Position numbers and translations under genes: made by a program. The notes under the pieces are model-generated. The model did not search any database, had not been told where the DNA came from, and saw nothing but the letters and a program-made list of their open reading frames with translations. From NCBI RefSeq assembly GCF_016623615.1, contig NZ_JAEHFX010000001.1:124001-188000 (forward strand): 64,000 bases of DNA. Direction: 5' to 3'. This document shows, one piece after another, positions 8,679-52,298 of the stretch; the stretch's first letter is position 1, and every line of letters begins with the position of its first letter. This DNA comes from Adhaeribacter terrigena. GTDB lineage: Bacteria; Bacteroidota; Bacteroidia; Cytophagales; Hymenobacteraceae.

Positions 8679-9716
8679 TTACTTAATAGCTTTCAGCAGC
8701 TTGAATTTGAAAGTCGTGCCGCGGCCAACTTCGCTGTTAACGGCCAGAATGGAGCGGTGTGCTTCTACGATGTGCTTGCAAATGGCCAGGCCCAGGCCGG
8801 TGCTGCTGCCGGTAACTTCGCGGCTGCGGCTTTTGTCGATGCGGTAAAAACGTTCGAAAATGCGGTTGTGGTGTTCTTTGGCCATGCCGGCGCCGTCGTC
8901 GCGCACGGTAATGGTCATTTTCTTTTTACCGTCTTTGAGCGTGAGCCAGATGTTGCCGTTTTCGCGGCCGTATTTTATGGCGTTATCGAGCAGGTTTATA
9001 ATTACCTGGCGAATGCGGTTTGGGTCGGCAAAAACGAGCAATTCTTCCTCTACGTCGTAATAGAAATGGAGCTTTACGTGGCGCAGGGCGGCTTTGTGTT
9101 CCAGTTGTTCCAGTACTTCGCCGGAAAGTTCGATGATATCGAAAACGCGTTTTTCCATTTTAATTACGCCTTTTTCGAGCTGCGAGATCGTGATCAGGTC
9201 CTGCACCAGGCTGTCGAGGCCGTCCAGGCTGCGGGCAGCTTTCTGAAGAAACCTGTCGCGCACATTTTCATCGTCGGCGGCGCCGTCTAATAGAGTATGG
9301 ATAAAGCCCTGGGCGGCAAAAATGGGCGTTTTCAGTTCGTGCGAAACATCGGCCAGGAACTCACGGCGCAATGATTGCAACCGTTTCAGTTCGTCTATTT
9401 CCTTTTGCTTTTGTTCGGCCATGTGGTAAATTTCTTCCTTGATCCTTTTCAGCGGTTCGGGGCGGAACAGGAATTTACTGCTCATGCGCCGGAATTCCTT
9501 GCGTTTGATATTTTCCAGGCCGGCGTAAATGTTGTTGATCTCGCGGAAAATAAGGGCTTCGTAAGAAAAATAAACCAGAATAAAGCAAGCGCCAAAAGCC
9601 AGGCCAAGCGTGAAGATACGGCTGCGAAAGGCCAGGTAGGGCGAAAAGAAAAGGAAACCTGTTACAATGGCGGCTACCGTTAAAGAGATAATAATGGCAA
9701 TCTTACGCGAACTCAT
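8679..9716 (-). CDS. Membrane sensor histidine kinase (PhoR-like)
   Basis: Inner-membrane kinase of 345 aa, partner of the response regulator gene just upstream. Two hydrophobic segments (about residues 7-29 and 34-54) are joined by only a few residues, so there is no sizeable periplasmic sensor domain. A linker helix leads to the HisKA motif FLADVSHELKTP with phospho-acceptor His126. The HATPase domain follows, with N-box NLLDNAIKYG, DDGAGMA, FERFYRID and a STGLGLAI G-box. The architecture fits PhoR-like kinases, but the signal cannot be inferred. Regulator and kinase genes are separated by 221 nt of AT-rich repeats. Confidence 0.93.
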   Translation of the reverse strand: MSSRKIAIIISLTVAAIVTGFLFFSPYLAFRSRIFTLGLAFGACFILVYFSYEALIFREINNIYAGLENIKRKEFRRMSSKFLFRPEPLKRIKEEIYHMAEQKQKEIDELKRLQSLRREFLADVSHELKTPIFAAQGFIHTLLDGAADDENVRDRFLQKAARSLDGLDSLVQDLITISQLEKGVIKMEKRVFDIIELSGEVLEQLEHKAALRHVKLHFYYDVEEELLVFADPNRIRQVIINLLDNAIKYGRENGNIWLTLKDGKKKMTITVRDDGAGMAKEHHNRIFERFYRIDKSRSREVTGSSTGLGLAICKHIVEAHRSILAVNSEVGRGTTFKFKLLKAIK

Positions 9717-9937: not shown

Positions 9938-10633
9938 TTAATCCGTGTTGAATTTATAGCCTACGCCTTTAATGGTTTTGATATTTTCTTCGCCTATTTT
10001 TTCGCGCACTTTCCGGATGTGTACGTCTACGGTGCGGGCAATTACAAAAACATCGTTGCCCCAAACGCTGTTCAGGAGTTCTTCGCGGCTGAAAACTTTG
10101 TTGGGCGTGGCGGCTAAAAAGGCGAGCAGTTCGAATTCTTTTTTGGGGAGCGAAATTTTCTGATCGCCTTTGTAAACCGCAAAGCTGGTACGGTCTATGC
10201 GTAAACCGCCAATCGAAATTTCGGGAGCCTGTTCGGGGTTTTGCTGGTTGTCGCGGCGCACGTAGGCGGCCAGGCGGCTGATGAGCGCGCGGGGTTTTAT
10301 GGGTTTGGTAATAAAATCGTCGGCACCGGCATCAAATGCAGCTACTTCCGAAAATTCTTCGGCGCGGGCAGTCAGGAATAAAATGTAGGTGTCTTTGAAA
10401 CGCTTGAGTTCGCGCAGATACCGGCAGGCAGCAATACCATCCATTACCGGCATCATTACGTCCATGAGAATAATATCGGGGCTGAAGGTGAGGGCCACGT
10501 CAATGGCTTTTTTACCGTTCTCGGCGCTGGCCACCTCGTACCCTTCCTTCGTTAAATTATACTGTAGCAACTCGATAATATCGGGATCGTCGTCTACCAG
10601 AAGAACTTTGTATTTAGTAGTGTGCTGGCTCAT
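9938..10633 (-). CDS. OmpR/PhoB-family response regulator
   Basis: DNA-binding regulator of 231 aa. The receiver domain carries the acidic pocket VDDD (residues 14-16), phospho-acceptor Asp58 in ILMDVMMP, the switch Thr in LFLTARAE and Lys in ITKPI. The C-terminal winged helix shows PKKEFELLAFLAATPNKVFSREELLNSVWG and RTVDVHIRKVREKIGEE. The start is placed at ATG 10633 (MSQHTTKYKVLLVDDD); seven extra upstream codons are possible. The downstream kinase gene completes the pair. The domain set is that of PhoB; target genes are unknown. Confidence 0.94.
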   Translation of the reverse strand: MSQHTTKYKVLLVDDDPDIIELLQYNLTKEGYEVASAENGKKAIDVALTFSPDIILMDVMMPVMDGIAACRYLRELKRFKDTYILFLTARAEEFSEVAAFDAGADDFITKPIKPRALISRLAAYVRRDNQQNPEQAPEISIGGLRIDRTSFAVYKGDQKISLPKKEFELLAFLAATPNKVFSREELLNSVWGNDVFVIARTVDVHIRKVREKIGEENIKTIKGVGYKFNTD

Positions 10634-11940: not shown

Positions 11941-12325
11941 CGGTTTTTCATAGTCTGTATTCTACCTTTTATCATTAGCTGGATTAGCTTTTAACTCACT
12001 TCTGTGTTCTTTTTGTCCCCGAAAGGGTTCGGGATGTTCCACTTGATACAAAAAGAACCAACGGAAATCAAGCGGCACGTCCCGAAGCACTTCGGGAGTA
12101 AAGCGGAAACTTCCCGCAAGCCTGCGGGACAGGCGCTGACCGCTCAAACAACGCTTTGACAAATAGCCACCGTGATACTTTCTCAGCTTCGTAATGAACT
12201 GAAAAGTGCCTATATAGAAAATATTTCTGCTCTTGCAGGCGGCATAATCTGCCGCCGTAAGCGCAAATTATGCTTGCTCCTTGTTGCTTTCTTTGATCGT
12301 ACTCCGCTCTCGCGTTCGAGTGAAA
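11941..12325 (+). repeat. About 385-bp dispersed repeat, copy 1
   Basis: Runs from CGGTTTTTCATAG to CGCGTTCGAGTGAA and aligns along its length with 18954-19339. It contains several hairpins: GTTCTTTTTGT paired with ACAAAAAGAAC, CCCGAAGCACTTCGGG, CCCGCAAGCCTGCGGG and GGCGGC...GCCGCC. The structured pattern suggests a non-coding repeat or an RNA rather than a gene. Confidence 0.85.
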
Positions 12326-12420: not shown

Positions 12421-12930
12421 CTATTTAGATGGTTGTATGACCTGCAAAGCCGCCCGAAAACGTTCTTCATCCGTTCCGGAAATAACTTCGAAAGGAAAAT
12501 TGAGGCGTTCCAGTTCAGCTTTGTAAAGGTCGAAAAAATACTGGCGGAGGTGCGGGTGTTCGCGTTGCGGATCGGGTTCCCAGGGCAGGTCTATGTTCAT
12601 TAACAGATACAGGTCGAAACGCTGGTTTTGCAGTTCGTCTAAAATCCAGGCGGGGCAGGTGCCGAACGCGTTTTCGCTCCAGATCTTCAGTACCAGTAAT
12701 TCCGTATCGGCGAAGAGTATTTTGTGAGCCTGAGCTTCTGCTTGTTGTTGCAAACGGAGCTGGCCGCGGGCAATGTTTTCGAGATCTGTAAGTGTGTAAG
12801 CCTGGTTTAAATTCGCTACGTATTCACGGGCAAATTCGGGAACCCAGAGCGCCTTAAAATAACCAGCCAATTGCTGCGCCAAGGTAGATTTTCCGGTGCT
12901 TTCCGGCCCGGTTATGGCAATGCGTTTCAT
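12421..12930 (-). CDS. NadR-like nicotinamide riboside kinase / AAA ATPase
   Basis: Cytoplasmic P-loop kinase of 169 aa with Walker A GPESTGKST at residues 8-16. It has the EFAREYV motif and LLMNIDLPWEPDPQREHP typical of the C-terminal ribosylnicotinamide kinase domain of NadR. The N-terminal NMN adenylyltransferase and repressor domains of full NadR are absent. Its ATG overlaps the pnuC stop by 4 nt (12927-12930), so the two are translationally coupled. PnuC imports nicotinamide riboside and this kinase would trap it as NMN. A thiamine-related role is less likely because no TPP riboswitch precedes the pair. Confidence 0.88.
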   Translation of the reverse strand: MKRIAITGPESTGKSTLAQQLAGYFKALWVPEFAREYVANLNQAYTLTDLENIARGQLRLQQQAEAQAHKILFADTELLVLKIWSENAFGTCPAWILDELQNQRFDLYLLMNIDLPWEPDPQREHPHLRQYFFDLYKAELERLNFPFEVISGTDEERFRAALQVIQPSK

Positions 12931-36643: not shown

Positions 36644-36657
36644 AAGCTGTACCTTTG
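36628..36657 (+). promoter_or_regulatory. Promoter of the TPP-controlled TonB receptor gene
   Basis: TTTG (36628-36631), an 18-bp spacer, then TACCTTTG (36650-36657), just before the riboswitch. Confidence 0.75.
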
Positions 36658-36666
36658 CAGCAGTTT

Positions 36667-36737
36667 AGGGGTGCCTTAATATAACGGGCTGAGATTATAC
36701 CCATTGAACCTGCTCCGGGTAATGCCGGCGAAGGGAA
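36667..36737 (+). promoter_or_regulatory. TPP riboswitch (thi box)
   Basis: Conserved pieces in order: GGGGTGCC, CGGGCTGAGA, ACCC, then GAACCTGCTCCGGGTAATGC and CGGCGAAGGGAA. This is the full thiamine pyrophosphate aptamer. A following CAGGC...GCCTG hairpin (about 36763-36790) before a T-rich stretch could be the expression platform. High TPP is expected to switch the TonB receptor gene off. Confidence 0.95.
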
Positions 36738-36817
36738 AACATGGTAAAACTTATAAAGAAAAGCAGGCTGCAAGCCCCTCGTGGCCTGTATGTTTTATCA
36801 ATCTCATTTTACAATTT

Positions 36818-45163: not shown

Positions 45164-46603
45164 ATGAAAAAACGCCTCATACTTTTTTGCCTCCTTTTGC
45201 TACCGTTTTTGCCGGCCTTTGCGCAGGAAATTGTGGTAAAGCTGGGCAAAAGTCCGGTGCCCATAGACGAGTATTTTACCATTTCGGTAACGCTTAAAAA
45301 CGAGCAGTTAAAAACCATCGGTAAATTTCCCGAGATCGAAGGCTTTGAAAAAAGCAACCGTTTTTCTTCTACCCAGACCAATACCGTAAACGGCCAGGTT
45401 TCGTCTGTAGAGCAAACCATTACCCAGAATTATGCGGCCCTGAAAGAAGGGGAATTTCCGGTAAAACCTTTCAGCATAGAAGTAAACGGCCGCAAAGTAG
45501 AATCAAAAGGCGGAACCGTGAAAGTTGGTCCGCCGGCTACCAAAGCGGCACCGCCGCTCCAGGGTTTTGGCCTGCTCGACGAACTTTTCGGCAAACAAAA
45601 ACCCCAGGAATACATCGACAAAAAAGAAGACGCTTTTCTGGCTTTCAGCACCGGTAAAGATGAAATTTTTGCCGGCGAAGGCCTGCCCGTAAATTTATCG
45701 TTCTACGTAGCCCGCGGCGACGAACGCCTGCTCGATTTCTACGAGTTCAACCGGCAGTATTCCGAAATGCTGAAAAAGCTGAAACCCGCCAATGCCTGGG
45801 AAGAAAGCTTTGCGCAAACCAGCGTAGAACCCGAGATCGTAACCATCGACAAAAAGGAATACCTGCGCTACAAACTCTACGAAGCCGTGTATTTTCCCAT
45901 CAATACCGAGCCGCTGCTGTTTCCTTCGGTGGGCCTGAACATGATCAAATACCGCATCGCCAAAGAACCCGATATTTTTGGTGAGAGCCGGCTACCGTCG
46001 TATAAAACCTATTACACCGCGCCCAAAATTGTGCCTGTAAAACCGCCGCCGCCGCACCCTTTGCAAAGCGGTGTGCCCGTAGGCGATTACCGCTTAAATG
46101 AGCAGTTAAGTACCCGCCAGTTCACCGTGGGCAAAAGTTTTACCTACACCTTCGAAATTGCCGGGGAAGGGAATTTAGCCGTTTTAAATGCACCGGTTCC
46201 GGAGCCGGTTCCCGGGCTGGAATTTACCGCGCCCGATGTGCAGCAGCATATAATCCGGCAAAACGGTAGGGTTTCGGGCCGGAAAAGTTATGCCTATTTC
46301 GTTACGCCCAAAAAACCTGGTACTTTCGATCTCAAGCCCGTATTCAGCTTTATTTTTTTTAATCCGAACACCGCCCAATACGATACCCTGCAATCGGAGC
46401 TGCAGATTCACGTAACCGGCGAAGCGGATAACGATGCCGCCATTCAGGCCAAAGATATGGGCCAGTTCTACGAACGCATTGAAACCGAAAGCAACGAACT
46501 CGTAAGCCTGAACCAGTTTACCCAAGTTAAAATGTACACCAACCTGGTGGTTATTTTTCTGGCGGGCATTTCGCTTTTCCTGTTTTATAAAAACCGCGCA
46601 TGA
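45164..46603 (+). CDS. BatD-like protein
   Basis: Envelope protein of 479 aa; start ATG 45164 with signal peptide [21 protein letters not shown]. Beta-rich domains follow ([61 protein letters not shown]), with a single C-terminal membrane anchor ([17 protein letters not shown]). This is the BatD/oxygen-tolerance family layout. Bat proteins usually work with MoxR and VWA proteins; no batA, batB, batC or batE is adjacent here and the MoxR gene is at 23.4 kb. An E29 copy lies inside the gene (46260-46288) and is translated in frame. The stop overlaps the aroC start by 4 nt. Confidence 0.88.
46260..46288 (+). repeat. E29 element inside the BatD-like coding sequence
   Basis: Plus-strand copy AAAACGGTAGGGTTTCGGG ... 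GAAAAGT, read in frame as (R)[10 protein letters not shown]. It closely matches the intergenic copy at 51762-51790. Confidence 0.88.
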
Positions 46604-47679
46604 GCAATTCTTACGGCAAACTTTTCCGCATTACCACCTTCGGCGAATCGCACGGCAAAGGCGTGGGCGTAGTAATTGATGGCTGCCCGGCGGGGCTGGA
46701 AATTTCCCGGGAGGAAATTCAGCAGGCCTTGGACCGCAGAAGACCGGGCCAAAGCAATTTAACCACGCCGCGCCAGGAAGCCGATCAGGTAGAGATCCTG
46801 TCGGGGATTTTTGAAGGCAAAACGCTCGGTACGCCCATTGCGCTGCTGGTGTATAACCAGGATGCCGAAAGCAAAGATTACAGCCACCTGCAAAACGCCT
46901 TCCGCCCCTCGCACGCCGATTTTACCTACACCGCCAAATATGGCCACCGCGACCACCGGGGCGGCGGCCGCAGTTCCGCCCGCGAAACCCTGGCGCGGGT
47001 AGCCGCCGGGGCCATTGCCGCTAAATTGCTCGAAAGCCAAAAAGTAAAAATTGCCACTTACGTGTCGCAGGTGGGGAAAATAAAAGTGCGCAAGCCTTAC
47101 CAGCAACTCGATTTGGGTAAAATTGAAACTAATGCCGTGCGCTGCCCCGACGGAAAAACGGCCAGCCGGATGATTTCTCTAATTGAAGAAACCCGCGATA
47201 AGAACGATTCGATCGGTGGGGTGGTAAGCTGCGTGATCCAGGGGGTGCCGGCTGGCTGGGGCGAACCTGTTTTCGATAAACTGCACGCCGAACTCGGTAA
47301 AGCCATGCTGAGCATAAACGCGGTAAAAGGCTTAGATTTCGGTTCGGGTTTTGAAGGATTAGGCATGACCGGTTCGGAGCACAACGATATTTTCTTTCAG
47401 GATTCCGGCGGCAACATTCAGACCAAAACCAATTATTCCGGTGGTATTCAGGGCGGCATTTCCAACGGGCAGGATATTTACCTGCGGGTAGCTTTTAAAC
47501 CGGTAGCCACCATTCTGCAAACCCAAACCAGCATCGATGCCGAAGGAAACAAAATTCAGCTGGAAGGCAAAGGCCGCCACGACCCCTGCGTATTGCCGCG
47601 CGCCGTTCCCATTGTAGAAGCCATGGCCGCGCTGGTATTAGCCGATTTTATGCTGCGCGCTAAAGTTTCGAAGCTTTAA
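46600..47679 (+). CDS. aroC: Chorismate synthase
   Basis: Last enzyme of the shikimate pathway; it turns 5-enolpyruvylshikimate 3-phosphate into chorismate with reduced FMN. The 359-aa protein shows the start [63 protein letters not shown], and the late [18 protein letters not shown]. Length is typical. It is translationally coupled to the BatD-like gene through ATGA, an unusual pairing. An E29 copy begins one base after its stop. Confidence 0.98.
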
Positions 47680-47708: not shown

Positions 47709-47836
47709 GAAAGGATAAAGCTTGTTTTCGAAGGCTTTTGTATTTGACCTAACGGTCAAGTTTATGCGCCGAAAGGGTTTTCGGAGCAGTTTCCTGTCCT
47801 CCCACACAAAAGCTTAAGAGGGGTACAACGCTTGAA

Positions 47837-47876
47837 TTCCAACCGAACCCCTTACAGCATATATGCTTTGTTGGAA
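47837..47876 (-). repeat. attC-like site D at the distal end of the cassette array
   Basis: Minus strand: TTCCAAC (47876-47870) directly after the gene and GTTGGAA (47843-47837). An alternative outer partner, GTTAGGT, lies at 47753-47747 and would make a 130-bp site. The inner part pairs AAGGGGT with ACCCCT. Confidence 0.55.
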
Positions 47877-47881
47877 TTTCG

Positions 47882-48499
47882 TTATTTTTTCAATTTAAAA
47901 TCTATTCCAACCATTAAATACCCTAATATAAATCCTTTATTACCCAAATGAATATTTATTGGTCTAACCTCATAAGCAAATCGACTTTGTTTTGGGTCAA
48001 TTCTTAATCCGACCGAGGCATTCCCTCCATAATACAAAGCGTAAAAATATTCAGAATTATTATTTTGGGCGTCTCGCCAACCCCCAGTCCCTAATAAGCC
48101 TCTTGAATAATTAATAAAACCGCCACCTGTTGCAACTATAGATACAGCCTTATATTTAATTAGGTCGTAATGTATATTTATTCCTAGAGAGGTTATTCGA
48201 TAAAATTGGTCCCGGGTATCGGTAATTGCGATTGGTAAAAATCCACCAATTGTCATATTTGGGTTTATTCTGAGTTTATTTTTTTCGCCAACACTTTTTT
48301 GCCAACCAATCGAGTAAATTAATCCCATTCCAATTTCTCTGCTACCTTCATTTATGCCAATGCCTATAGCTGTTCTGATGGAGCTCTTTTTATACTCTGT
48401 TTCTTGAGAATAAACCTCACTGCCTGTAAATAAACTGACCAATAAAAGTGGAATCAATTTACTAAAATTTGTTAATGCCTTAGGAATTTCTGTTTTCAT
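47882..48499 (-). CDS. Cassette gene 3: exported beta-barrel-like protein
   Basis: Exported protein of 205 aa with a signal segment (FSKLIPLLLVSLFTGSEVYS) and amphipathic strands in the mature part (IRTAIGIGINEG, GMGLIYSIGWQKS, FAYEVRPINIHLGNKGFILGYLMVGIDFKLKK), so probably a small outer-membrane barrel. Family unknown. It is very AT-rich compared with aroC next to it. Its unit begins with GTTGGCA at 48537-48531 (minus strand) and ends with TTCCAAC just after the stop. These match with one mismatch, as expected for a gene cassette. Confidence 0.72.
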   Translation of the reverse strand: MKTEIPKALTNFSKLIPLLLVSLFTGSEVYSQETEYKKSSIRTAIGIGINEGSREIGMGLIYSIGWQKSVGEKNKLRINPNMTIGGFLPIAITDTRDQFYRITSLGINIHYDLIKYKAVSIVATGGGFINYSRGLLGTGGWRDAQNNNSEYFYALYYGGNASVGLRIDPKQSRFAYEVRPINIHLGNKGFILGYLMVGIDFKLKK

Positions 48500-48530
48500 A
48501 TCAGACCTGTATATTTTTTCTTATAATGAA

Positions 48531-48584
48531 TGCCAACGGCCGTGGCTATGCGGCGGCGAAGCTGCCGTATAGGTGTGGTTAGCA
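48531..48584 (-). repeat. attC-like site C
   Basis: Minus strand: TGCTAAC (48584-48578), then an imperfect stem in which CTATaCGGC pairs with GCCGcATAG around AGCTTCGCC, then GTTGGCA (48537-48531). Length is 54 bp. TGCTAAC belongs to the unit before it, and TTGGCA to the unit after it. Confidence 0.7.
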
Positions 48585-48592
48585 TAAGTTTT

Positions 48593-49426
48593 TTATCTGT
48601 ATTCGTATGTTACTTTGAAAATAGGAGTCTTGTAATCAGGACGAGTAGTCACTTTCTCAATCACCTTTTGGTCTAAGTTATATTTATAGTCTGTTCTAAA
48701 GAAATAAGCGTGATGCACTGTTTCAGTTGTCGGCAAATAGCCTTGTATATGGGTAATTGTTGTGTCGAGTTCAGATATGAGTAACGTATCCTTGTAATTA
48801 TATTTAGAAATAGTCAACACGTCCTCACCAAGATGGTATCTTTTCTTAAGAATTAGCCTATTGTTATCTCCATAGAACATTGAATCAACAATGGTTAGCC
48901 ATTTATTTACATTGGTATTATATTCTCTTTTGGTTGTAGTTGCTCTCCGAGATAAACTGTCGTATGTGTAACTTTCAGTTGTAGCGCTAGAATCATTACC
49001 AATAACTTTCTTGATTAGCAAGTTCTTATTATTGTAATAGTATCGTGCAGAAACCCTTTTATCATTTTTCGAAAAAACTACCATTGTCTTGACAAGTCTG
49101 TTTAAATTATCGTAATAATAAATTTCTTTTCCAGGCTTTTCACAGGTTCTTGTGCAATATTCCTCAGCGATAAGTTTTCCAGAAGTGTCGTATTTATAAA
49201 AGTGTTTATTATTTATTCCTAATTTCTGACCGTTCTCATTGTAGGTTTCGAAAATAGAGTCAATTCCTTTTAAGGAATAGTCACCGGAATCAAATTCATA
49301 ATACTTTGTTACTTTAACAATTCTTCTCTTTTCTTGGTCAATATATTTTTGACGCCAATCACTTGTGCCATTGTCTGTACAGGCAGTAATTGTCAGAAGG
49401 GTTAATATGGAAATTAATATTCTCAA
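48593..49426 (-). CDS. Cassette gene 2: lipoprotein with YD-like repeats
   Basis: Putative lipoprotein of 277 aa; the start is TTG 49426, only 5 nt inside the unit, giving the signal MRILISILTLLTITAC with a lipobox. The mature part has repeated tyrosine-rich units (HFYKYDTSGKLIAEEYC, YYYDNLNRLVKTMVV, YYYNNKNLLIKKVIG, ESYTYDSLSRRATTTK) like degenerate YD/RHS or MORN-type repeats. The role is unknown. It is strongly AT-rich. The unit starts GTTAGCA and its own downstream site starts TGCTAAC, an exact match. Confidence 0.72.
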   Translation of the reverse strand: MRILISILTLLTITACTDNGTSDWRQKYIDQEKRRIVKVTKYYEFDSGDYSLKGIDSIFETYNENGQKLGINNKHFYKYDTSGKLIAEEYCTRTCEKPGKEIYYYDNLNRLVKTMVVFSKNDKRVSARYYYNNKNLLIKKVIGNDSSATTESYTYDSLSRRATTTKREYNTNVNKWLTIVDSMFYGDNNRLILKKRYHLGEDVLTISKYNYKDTLLISELDTTITHIQGYLPTTETVHHAYFFRTDYKYNLDQKVIEKVTTRPDYKTPIFKVTYEYR

Positions 49427-49431
49427 ATTTG

Positions 49432-49497
49432 TGCTAACGGTATAGTATTTGCAAAGCCTGAAGCAAAGCAAAGGTTTTGTAAATACCTTGTTAGGAA
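49432..49497 (-). repeat. attC-like site B
   Basis: Minus strand: TTCCTAAC (49497-49490, containing the stop codon of cassette gene 1), then GGTATTTaCAAAaCC pairing with GGcTTTGcAAATAC and TACC around a 13-nt loop, then GTTAGCA (49438-49432). Length is 66 bp. It has unpaired extra bases on one arm, as in known attC sites. Confidence 0.75.
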
Positions 49498-50015
49498 TTT
49501 TTATTTTTCCTTGGCAGTACCGTATCAATTGGAATTCCATTTTTAAAGTTTATGTAATATTTTTCATTACCATTTTCATCCCAATATTGCCAAGAATGTT
49601 CTTTTTTATAATTTTCCCACCTACCTTGAAATTTTTTATTACCATTATTGTAGTACTTCATTCCAACAACTAGCTTATCCTTTGGCTTCAACTTTTTTAC
49701 GTTTTTAACTACCAAAATTTCATCATTAGAAATAAATAAGGACATTAATTTTCCTGTCTTATTCTCGGTCAGACTTAACTCATTATTAACTTTTTTAAAG
49801 GTTCCAGAAGATAATTCATATTCTATAAAATTATCAAAGTCCATTGCCTTTGTTTCTTTAAGCTTATAAATATTTGGTGGCAATAAATCAATCGAAATAT
49901 CTGATTTTGGAGCATAATACCAACCATAAAAGTTCTGGTTCTTTTTTGATTGGCTACCACAATTGAGCACCGTAGCAAATAATAAAAGGAACAATAGGTT
50001 TGTATTCTTAATCAT
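49491..50015 (-). CDS. Cassette gene 1: lipoprotein with MORN-like segment
   Basis: Putative lipoprotein of 174 aa: signal MIKNTNLLFLLLFATVLNC with a Cys for lipid attachment. The mature part carries a short MORN-like stretch (KYYNNGNKKFQGRWENYKK, then WQYWDENGNEKYYINFKNG) near the C-terminus. Function unknown. AT-rich. Its stop codon lies inside the core site TTCCTAAC. Its unit starts at GTTAGGAA (50052-50045, minus strand), the exact complement of that core. Confidence 0.72.
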   Translation of the reverse strand: MIKNTNLLFLLLFATVLNCGSQSKKNQNFYGWYYAPKSDISIDLLPPNIYKLKETKAMDFDNFIEYELSSGTFKKVNNELSLTENKTGKLMSLFISNDEILVVKNVKKLKPKDKLVVGMKYYNNGNKKFQGRWENYKKEHSWQYWDENGNEKYYINFKNGIPIDTVLPRKNKNS

Positions 50016-50044
50016 TATTGGGAAGGATTTATAACTTTTAATTA

Positions 50045-50160
50045 TTCCTAACTACTGTATATCCGTAATAACTCCGTTTATCCCTCCACCGTCAGGCGGA
50101 TAAACGTAACTGGATTAACGAATATACTATATTCTAACAGGATAATATAAGAAGTTAGAA
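50045..50160 (-). repeat. attC-like site A at the proximal end of the cassette array
   Basis: Minus strand: TTCTAAC (50160-50154), a 9-bp stem CGTTTATCC / GGATAAACG around GCCTGACGGTGGAG, flanking ATCC/GGAT and GTATAT/ATATAC pairings, then GTTAGGAA (50052-50045). Length is about 116 bp. Confidence 0.6.
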
Positions 50161-50191: not shown

Positions 50192-51154
50192 CTAGCTTTT
50201 TTCTGCTTCCGCTTTCTTGGCCAGCACTGCTTTTACCGAAGTCCAGTTAATTTCCGGGTAGCGATTATTATCCAGGTGGTCTAATTTAGGCAGGCCGCTG
50301 AGCATGTTGTGCAAATATTGCATGCCCTGCCAGGCCGGAAAAACTTCTCCGGGCGCCGGCGAAAAAGTTTTGGCCAGCTTTATCATCAGGCCGAACATGC
50401 CCAGGGTACCTGCCCACAACAACCCGAATTGCTCACCGGTAACTTCCGAAGCAGCATCCCGCAGATCGCGCATGGAAGCTACCTGGCCGGCAATTTTCAG
50501 GAAGCGGGGCGTGGTAGGGTCCAGCGCGGCGGTGGCGGTAAATGCGGCGGTATTGGCGCGGGTGGTAAAATCCATCAACTGATCGGCATTTCCCCAGTAA
50601 AGCACGCGTTTGAGGTTAAACAGAATGACCGGAGCCTCGCCCGTAAGCAGATCTGTAAACATGCCGTTCAGCACAGAAGTAGCTTTTATGGGGGCTTTAT
50701 CCAGGATCTTTTGAAATTCTCTTCGCAGGTCCAGGTTGCGGTTGCTGCCTTCCGGAAGTCTGGTAAAATCGATGCAATAATCGGAGGGAATAAACCGGGG
50801 AACGCCCGCTGCTACTGCTGCCTGCAGCAATTTCGTTTGCGCCTCCACGATCACGTCGCGCAGCCCGGACAGGGCAGAAACCACGCAAGCGCCGCCTTTA
50901 CAGGCTTCTGTCAATGCTTCCGCGTCGTTGTAATCAAGTCTTACGATCTCTGCGCCAAGTTGCTGTAAGGTTGCGATGGCTGCCGGGGCACTGTTTTCGC
51001 GGACCAACGCTTTTACGTGCGCCTTTCGTTGCCGCAGGTAGCCGGCAATTTCCAAACCCAAACCGCCGGTAGCGCCCGCCAGTACAATGGTTTTATTTCC
51101 GGATTGGGAAGGAAAAGAAAGTTCCGGGTTTGCTGTTTTCAGATTTGTAGCCAT
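50192..51154 (-). CDS. NmrA-like NAD(P)-binding reductase
   Basis: Atypical short-chain dehydrogenase of 320 aa, start ATG 51154. The Rossmann motif is TIVLAGATGGLGLEIAGYL, followed by VKALVRENSA, VSALSGLRDVIVEAQTKLLQAAVAAGVPRFIPSDYC and a C-terminal substrate region. This is the NmrA/isoflavone-reductase-like (aromatic alcohol reductase) group, which includes both enzymes and redox sensors. The substrate is unknown. Its GC-rich composition differs from the cassette genes behind it, so it is probably host DNA beside the array. Confidence 0.85.
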   Translation of the reverse strand: MATNLKTANPELSFPSQSGNKTIVLAGATGGLGLEIAGYLRQRKAHVKALVRENSAPAAIATLQQLGAEIVRLDYNDAEALTEACKGGACVVSALSGLRDVIVEAQTKLLQAAVAAGVPRFIPSDYCIDFTRLPEGSNRNLDLRREFQKILDKAPIKATSVLNGMFTDLLTGEAPVILFNLKRVLYWGNADQLMDFTTRANTAAFTATAALDPTTPRFLKIAGQVASMRDLRDAASEVTGEQFGLLWAGTLGMFGLMIKLAKTFSPAPGEVFPAWQGMQYLHNMLSGLPKLDHLDNNRYPEINWTSVKAVLAKKAEAEKS

Positions 51155-51869: not shown

Positions 51870-52298
51870 TTAATTCAAAGCTGCTTTGTTTTTGCCCGAA
51901 GCCAGTTTGCCGGCCAGGTAAGCCATAGGAATATAAGCCACTACCAGGTCTAAAACCGTAAACCAGGTAGGCGAAGGCAGCATGAACACGCTGGCAATGC
52001 CGCCGGCCAGGAAAAAGAACCCAACCACCAAAGCCAGCCGGATCTTATTGTAAACCGCCAGCAAAGCGGTAACCAAAGCGCCCGCAAACGTGCCCAGCGC
52101 GTGCGCCAGGAAAGGGAAAAGAAAGTGCTTCGGTTCAAATAAATGCATGGTGGCTTTCAGGCCTTCGGTGGTGGTTACGTCGGCGCCGGAAGGTGGCGGA
52201 ATAATGGCGCCGCTGAGCGAAATAATGCCCATGTTCACCACGCTGCCCACAATAAAACCTGCCACTACGGCTAAAAAATTTCTAAGTACCGGACTCAT
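51870..52298 (-). CDS. Hypothetical four-helix membrane protein
   Basis: Inner-membrane protein of 142 aa with four hydrophobic segments: NFLAVVAGFIVGSVVNMGIISL, FPFLAHALGTFAGALVTALLAVY, LALVVGFFFLAGGIASVFML and a final one ending VVAYIPMAYLAGKLA. The AGFIVGSVVNMGII start is common in uncharacterised Bacteroidota proteins. No function is known. It has its own hairpin terminator. Confidence 0.75.
   Translation of the reverse strand: MSPVLRNFLAVVAGFIVGSVVNMGIISLSGAIIPPPSGADVTTTEGLKATMHLFEPKHFLFPFLAHALGTFAGALVTALLAVYNKIRLALVVGFFFLAGGIASVFMLPSPTWFTVLDLVVAYIPMAYLAGKLASGKNKAALN

Follow-up and report, generated by a model that had tools for sequence, protein, structure and literature searches.

Three AT-rich single-gene units, arranged in tandem beside the aroC gene of Adhaeribacter terrigena and separated by imperfect palindromes, resemble an array of integron cassettes. 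They lie in a DNA stretch of 64 kb (the whole of which was analyzed and is referred to as the window) that encodes no integrase. This raises the question of what kind of system assembled the array and which recombinase it depends on.

Organization of the cassette array

The genetic organization of the locus is presented in Table 1. The GC content of the units (0.33, 0.33 and 0.28) is lower than that of the flanking genes (0.53–0.54). The units begin and end with GTTAGGAA..TTCCTAAC (unit 1), GTTAGCA..TGCTAAC (unit 2) and GTTGGCA..TTCCAAC (unit 3). On the minus strand, the predicted crossover points correspond to GTT triplets at positions 50052-50050 (attI/unit 1), 49438-49436 (unit 1/unit 2), 48537-48535 (unit 2/unit 3) and 47753-47751 (end of unit 3), and the TAA stop codon of gene 1 is placed within the core of site C. 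An earlier note, made from the sequence of the window, had described the unit ends and core motifs in exactly this form, and its account of three AT-rich, same-strand, single-gene units, of a stop codon inside a core site and of hybrid junctions between cassettes bounded by attC-like sites was likewise borne out.

Table 1. Features of the array and its flanks (positions in the window).
Feature	Position	Strand	Basis or remark
aroC (chorismate synthase), conserved flank	46600..47679	+	cassette genes converge on aroC
Site A, long and divergent attC at the end of unit 3	47747..47876	- (hairpin on + strand)	weak
Unit 3 cassette, core GTT to core GTT	47753..48536	-	sequence
Unit 3 gene, 205 aa, signal-peptide-like N-terminus	47882..48499	-	
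Site B, attC	48531..48584	- (hairpin on + strand)	R3 E 1.5e-11
Unit 2 cassette	48537..49437	-	sequence
Unit 2 gene, ~277 aa, inferred TTG start just within cassette, lipoprotein-like	48593..49426	-	
Site C, attC	49432..49496	- (hairpin on + strand)	R3 E 2.4e-7
Unit 1 cassette	49438..50051	-	88% identical copy in sister species (L255:9262-9891)
Unit 1 gene, 174 aa, lipoprotein-like	49491..50015	-	G001 protein 87% identical
Longer attI module, 123 bp	50027..50149	-	89% identical to C19:115.5 kb; 84% (96 bp) to C22:21.5 kb
Site D, attI-like core GGATAAACGG..TTACGGATATACAGTA-GTTAG	50047..50083	-	nhmmer E 1.8e-9 (D among 15 seeds)
NAD(P)-binding (NmrA-like) flank gene, no cassette	50192..51151	-	named from its sequence only

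Scanning of the three cassette proteins against Pfam and NCBIfam gave nothing above threshold; the unit 2 protein produced RHS/YD-repeat matches, all of them sub-threshold. An Rfam scan of the window detected a single family, a TPP riboswitch (positions 36657-36753, plus strand), which scored above the Rfam gathering score.

Structure of the attC-like sites

Three covariance models were used to score the sites. R1 was derived from an alignment (A1) of 25 sites of the source genome, including sites B and C of the window. Since B and C were seeds of R1, a further model (R3) was built without the window loci; its 26 sites all come from loci outside the window array, and as they were gathered with R1 a small leak remains. 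The seeds of the third model, R2, include sites from several loci later scored with it.

Sites B and C are the top R3 matches in the window. Site A ranks third, with an R3 E-value of 1.5 (R2 E 0.0047 in a search of 2.7 kb), and these three are the only R3 matches at E<=10. The predicted folds of sites B and C are more stable on the strand opposite the genes (-29.2 and -23.7 kcal/mol, respectively) than on the gene strand (-18.3 and -13.0 kcal/mol), as expected if the recombining attC strand is the bottom strand. The outcome of scoring and folding, with the models built here, thus agreed with the cassette reading of the earlier note.

The two-helix structure of A1 was drawn from the alignment by eye and counted afterwards. 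Standard pairs occupy 85.6% of the cells, compared to 69.1% after shuffling, and 14 of the 18 pairs are changed on both sides. The covariation score was 0.478, as against 0.200 for shuffled columns and at most 0.116 when the partner was slid. Although the sequence of the inner stem varies, its pairing is kept, as would be expected if a folded strand is what is recognized. As is typical of attC, the R boxes are complementary and the single strand can fold, and it may be in this single-stranded form that the sites are used in the cell. The L stem of A1 is a contiguous run of 11 pairs and the inner loop is asymmetric (6 nt versus 3 nt). No conserved bulge or extrahelical base was found in the L stem in A1, whereas attC-like sites at canonical IntI loci do show bulges.

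In the source genome, R1 detected 54 attC sites at E<=1 (53 at E<=0.01) at scattered loci, so that more of them are indeed present outside the window, as the earlier note had thought worth checking. Searches with loose IUPAC core-site patterns were abandoned, as they gave hundreds of chance matches; one of them did lead to the array on contig C2.

Dispersed attI-like sites

The earlier note had named four sites, A to D. B and C proved to be attC sites and A a weak, divergent one, but site D is different in kind: it is attI-like. The 18-mer ACGGATATACAGTAGTTA occurs in exactly two copies in the genome, one in site D and the other at C21:1043-1060, beside an integrase gene, and the two sites have 20 nt exactly in common.

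A profile was prepared from 15 attI-like seeds of the source genome and its relatives (site D included). In the source genome, 13 attI-like sites are located at array starts, six of which are seeds: C21 1.0, C19 7.8, site D of the window, C19 115.5, C2 7.6, C17 208.7, C19 31.6, C21 108.4, C22 21.5, C2 125.4, C17 8.9, C19 120.2 and C3 15.6 kb. The last two matches are weak (E 0.009 and 0.014, respectively). One more match to the attI pattern (C20:161578) was set aside because it lies inside an ORF. The cluster of attC sites that had been described as lacking an integrase does consist of cassettes, but it starts with an attI-like site of its own and is one of at least 13 attI-bearing arrays.

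The common element has the form GATAA.CG-spacer-CG.TTATC, followed after a few bases by GTTRRR, and its core is conserved at most satellite sites. In most relatives, as well as in Flavobacteriaceae loci (L119, L122 and L124 among them), it is found 3′ of the integrase stop codon; judged on sequence, an attI is thus placed beside the integrase gene, as it is in integrons. Upstream of 6 of the 13 attI sites there are TAnnTTTG boxes of the Bacteroidota type, a motif match that does not in itself prove transcription.

The integrase

The statement that the array has no visible integrase holds for the window, but a likely integrase, not of the IntI type, is encoded elsewhere in the genome. The source genome contains one full-length integrase of the array-linked family, at C21:1.2-2.6 kb (L010:1173-2636, minus strand), with an attI and cassettes as its neighbours. 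The open frame, whose start is uncertain, specifies a tyrosine recombinase of 487 aa, and the catalytic residues R, K, H, R, H and Y are invariant in the integrase alignment A2. Its best structural and NCBIfam matches are recombinases of the XerA/XerC type; the score with NF040815 was 215.5 (cut-off 220) and that with TIGR02249 was 204 bits, compared to a cut-off of 265.

The solved integron integrase 2a3v aligns to this protein in two pieces, leaving ~40 residues unmatched. The C21 integrase is devoid of the ~42-residue insertion (I2) of IntI, i.e. of the additional domain near patch III. The distance from K-D-R to H-x-x-R-H is 65–70 residues in 41 Bacteroidia sequences, as against 107 in IntI (six measurable). 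The lack of I2 in the integrase corresponds to the lack of L-stem extrahelical bases in the attC sites, and on these two tested features the system does not belong to the IntI integron family. The I2 helix of IntI has been described as necessary for cassette capture and as occurring in no other protein (PMC7790495).

In a quick tree, a branch supported at 100% sets the IntI proteins apart, with no Bacteroidia integrase among them; 30 Bacteroidia integrases group together at only 83% support, and the tree does not resolve the other members. An AlphaFold model of the C21 integrase (pLDDT 82) shows two similar N-terminal modules of ~100 residues each (L010:2013-2621, minus strand) ahead of a core like that of XerA and IntI. 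A Foldseek search with this N-terminal extension returned no significant match; the SMARCAL1 HARP domain was retrieved with a probability of 0.69 and E 0.16, and HARP appeared sub-threshold in two of six Pfam scans. This weak resemblance gives no more than a hint that the modules might be HARP-like and might bind hairpin or forked DNA.

Linkage between integrase and arrays

Within the family, 8–59 attC sites were counted in each genome whose integrase match is substantial (in G003 and G007 this match is split or partial), and G008, with an integrase remnant only, contains 22. No attC sites were detected in nine same-family genomes without a full integrase, one of which (G004) has fragments. 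Co-presence follows genus lines, so the family sample does not amount to 25 independent tests.

The position of the sites was more informative. In the loci of named genomes, 44 of 46 R2 matches are placed 3′ of the integrase gene and on the opposite strand; these loci range from Rufibacter to Winogradskyella, Seonamhaeicola, Algibacter and Bacteroidales, and several of them provided seed sites of R2. The two exceptions (L144:84-216 and 1558-1691) are found 5′ of the integrase gene, share its strand and perhaps form a separate array. Among 395 Bacteroidia genomes, all 25 of the attC matches listed within 25 kb of a listed integrase (16 loci) are on the 3′ side in the expected orientation.

The genome-level association across the class (odds ratio 3.1, p 2e-5, a value that is optimistic because the genomes are related) is weaker than this positional test, since the integrase family is wider than its array-linked part and only 8 attC candidates per genome were scored. 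An integrase match at E<=1e-45 is absent from 24 of the 82 Bacteroidia genomes with attC matches, and 138 genomes of the class have an integrase-family match and no attC among the 8 candidates scored per genome; either the family is broader than its array-linked subset or the attC scan misses sites. No R1 attC was found in G025, G027 and G034, which carry another branch of the recombinases.

These data bear on two other origins of the array. It might be the remnant of a conventional IntI integron that has lost its integrase, and its layout agrees with the definition of a cassette cluster; moreover, other classes of the phylum often encode canonical IntI, which exceeds the cut-off in 105 of the 396 genomes searched. 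However, no IntI over the cut-off is present in the source genome, and G075 is the only genome of the same class over the cut-off among the matches listed. The best R2 score in 30 canonical IntI loci was E 0.52, though some of these hold attC-like hairpins, and the position and orientation of the arrays track the non-IntI integrase. We therefore consider such a remnant improbable.

Still less probable, as far as sequence alone can tell, is movement of the cassettes by the housekeeping recombinases XerC/XerD acting in trans, in the manner of Xer-flanked resistance modules. The source genome does encode XerC/D-like recombinases, and Xer-flanked modules are known (PMC7399989). Nevertheless, no attC was found in XerC/D-type loci of relatives or in same-family genomes that have Xer and lack the linked integrase, and the sites are hairpins with covarying stems rather than a conserved Xer site.

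Two observations made in these searches may be added. G075, a Bacteroidia genome with a canonical IntI over the cut-off, has it at E 1.9e-126. In a Spirochaetota MAG, one weak R1 match (L149:9641-9740, E 0.0012) lies 3′ of a related recombinase; spread of the system beyond Bacteroidota is possible.

Turnover of cassettes

Orthologues of aroC were found in 23 of the 24 genomes searched, and the order aroC – Na+/H+ antiporter gene, with no cassettes in between, is the one seen in other relatives and appears ancestral. The NmrA-like gene has no homologue in the aroC loci of the relatives examined. In G001, of the same genus, an attI-like site (L251 ~9410-9443) is located between aroC and the orthologue of the gene at 51870. 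It is accompanied by two cassettes, both unlike those of the window, with one R2 attC (9958-10009) and a second, degenerate one, recognized by eye, before aroC.

The integrase-borne array of G001 carries a copy of unit 1 (88% identity over 631 bp). The core GTT is the precise point at which the homology sets in, and it stops just past the next core. Cassette content thus differs at the same aroC spot of sister genomes and unit homology breaks at the core GTT, in keeping with what the earlier note had expected of cassettes. Within the source genome, one cassette is common to the C21 and C22 arrays (90.5% identity).

An explanation of the palindromes as a repetitive element or as transcription terminators, with the genes being ordinary islands, is in our view scarcely credible. 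Hairpins placed 3′ of AT-rich genes would suit this explanation; against it stand the conserved AACG/GTT cores and the covarying stems, the start of unit 1 homology at a core GTT, the other cassettes behind attI at the same spot of the sister species, and the fixed geometry relative to the integrase.

Proposed mechanism

Taken together, the window most probably contains three captured cassettes behind a stand-alone attI (site D), belonging to a Bacteroidia integron system with a non-IntI integrase that lacks I2 and is extended at its N-terminus. The function of the system is very likely cassette capture, as far as sequence can indicate it. The features observed (the structure of the sites and the covariation of their stems, the copies of attI, the linkage to an integrase, the turnover of cassettes and the exact breakpoints) suggest the following scheme: (i) the strand opposite the cassette genes would fold into the attC hairpin; (ii) the C21-encoded integrase would cut at the core AAC/GTT and excise or capture a circular single-gene cassette; (iii) the cassette would be joined at an attI in double-stranded form, with the enzyme perhaps bound to the inverted repeat GATAA.CG/CG.TTATC beside the GTT crossover. 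Since the attI copies are scattered and several have a Bacteroidota-type promoter motif upstream, one integrase would serve many chromosomal platforms in trans, each presumably expressing its first cassettes.

The dispersed arrays could instead be dead relics of attI and cassette duplication, with only the integrase-borne array active, a possibility compatible with the proposed system but not with service in trans today. Cassette copies diverge by ~10% between loci, site A is eroded and, in another genome, the attI beside the integrase (L053) deviates. On the other hand, different cassettes occupy one satellite site in two sister species and, as described above, attI cores have mostly been maintained; we regard general inactivity of the satellites as rather unlikely.

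Relationship to known systems

Like sedentary chromosomal integrons, the arrays consist of single-gene cassettes in one orientation, have attC-like hairpins with YYYAAC/GTTRRR cores and an attI next to the gene of a tyrosine recombinase, and show cassette turnover. They differ in that the recombinase lacks I2 and falls outside the IntI clade, the L stem has no extrahelical base, and attI copies are dispersed over the chromosome. In integrons of the Treponema denticola type, the integrase gene is oriented like the cassettes and its 3′ end faces attI, as it does here, but the enzyme is a canonical IntI. Simple tyrosine recombinases of the XerA/XerC type (NF040815; PDB 5hxy, 4a8e) have the same catalytic fold without I2; unlike them, the C21 integrase has the N-terminal extension with two similar modules and is linked to cassette arrays.

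Cassettes outside the main platform are also found at attG sites. In the present case, however, the sites away from the main platform are themselves complete attI-like copies whose inverted repeats are conserved. Cassette insertion sites called attG are mentioned in PMC12901181. In the terms of IntegronFinder (PMC9024848), the window array is a CALIN, having at least two close attC sites (B and C, 0.85 kb apart, as judged with the models built here) and no IntI nearby; what sets it apart is its attI-like start, together with the non-IntI system to which it is linked and which is encoded at another place in the genome.

The system appears to function as integrons do, and the most fitting name for it is that of an I2-less, multi-platform variant; the arrays look like an unrecognized, widespread type of integron. 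In Bacteroidetes, where formerly only In0 elements had been reported, IntegronFinder 2.0 detected one complete integron, in Salinibacter ruber (PMC9024848); Bacteroidota are also listed elsewhere, with no detail given (PMC8618304, PMC9668308). No description of an I2-less Bacteroidia system was found in the freely accessible journal literature, to which the search was confined.

If the proposed reading is true, a widespread cassette system with no I2, whose hairpins lack the bases that I2 reads, would detach the term integron from IntI, and the way in which single-strand recombination arose could be put to the test. It would, in addition, partly account for Salinibacter ruber being the only member of the Bacteroidetes in which IntegronFinder 2.0 reports a complete integron, and would bring to light a large pool of cassettes in a class that is common in the environment. 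As to origin, the Bacteroidia system may have arisen independently of IntI or have split off before I2 was gained, with I2-less capture, N-terminal modules that read the hairpin and one integrase for many attI; we see the case for this as evenly balanced.

Cassette content

In the source genome, 54 cassettes could be delimited in a total of 18 complete or fragmentary arrays. Of these cassettes, 49 carry a sense ORF of 60 aa or more, and in 52 no antisense ORF is longer than the sense one; the median cassette measures 562 bp and the median ORF 177 aa. The cassettes are single-gene, same-strand and, as the copies shared between arrays and species show, exchangeable, as those of integrons are. 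An enrichment in exported proteins was considered and rejected (30/49 versus 18/34 background ORFs, p 0.50).

Several contigs break within arrays (C2 at its end, position 150019; C20 at its end; C21 and C19 at their starts), and C9 (3.2 kb) contains cassettes only. Therefore, the C2 and C21 arrays could be parts of one large integrase-borne array, and the cassette counts are minima.

Three cassettes of locus L022 (5815-6101, 12108-12488 and 12622-12911) lack any ORF of 60 aa. Between two of them the identity is 88% over 253 bp, the third being more distantly related; they are possibly non-coding or promoter cassettes. A stretch like them seems, by eye, to follow the attI of G001 (L054). Long attC sites of ~130 nt are found beside these cassettes (L022:5682-5814, 11977-12107 and 12488-12621), and this type recurs in the sister species (L054:3360-3492).
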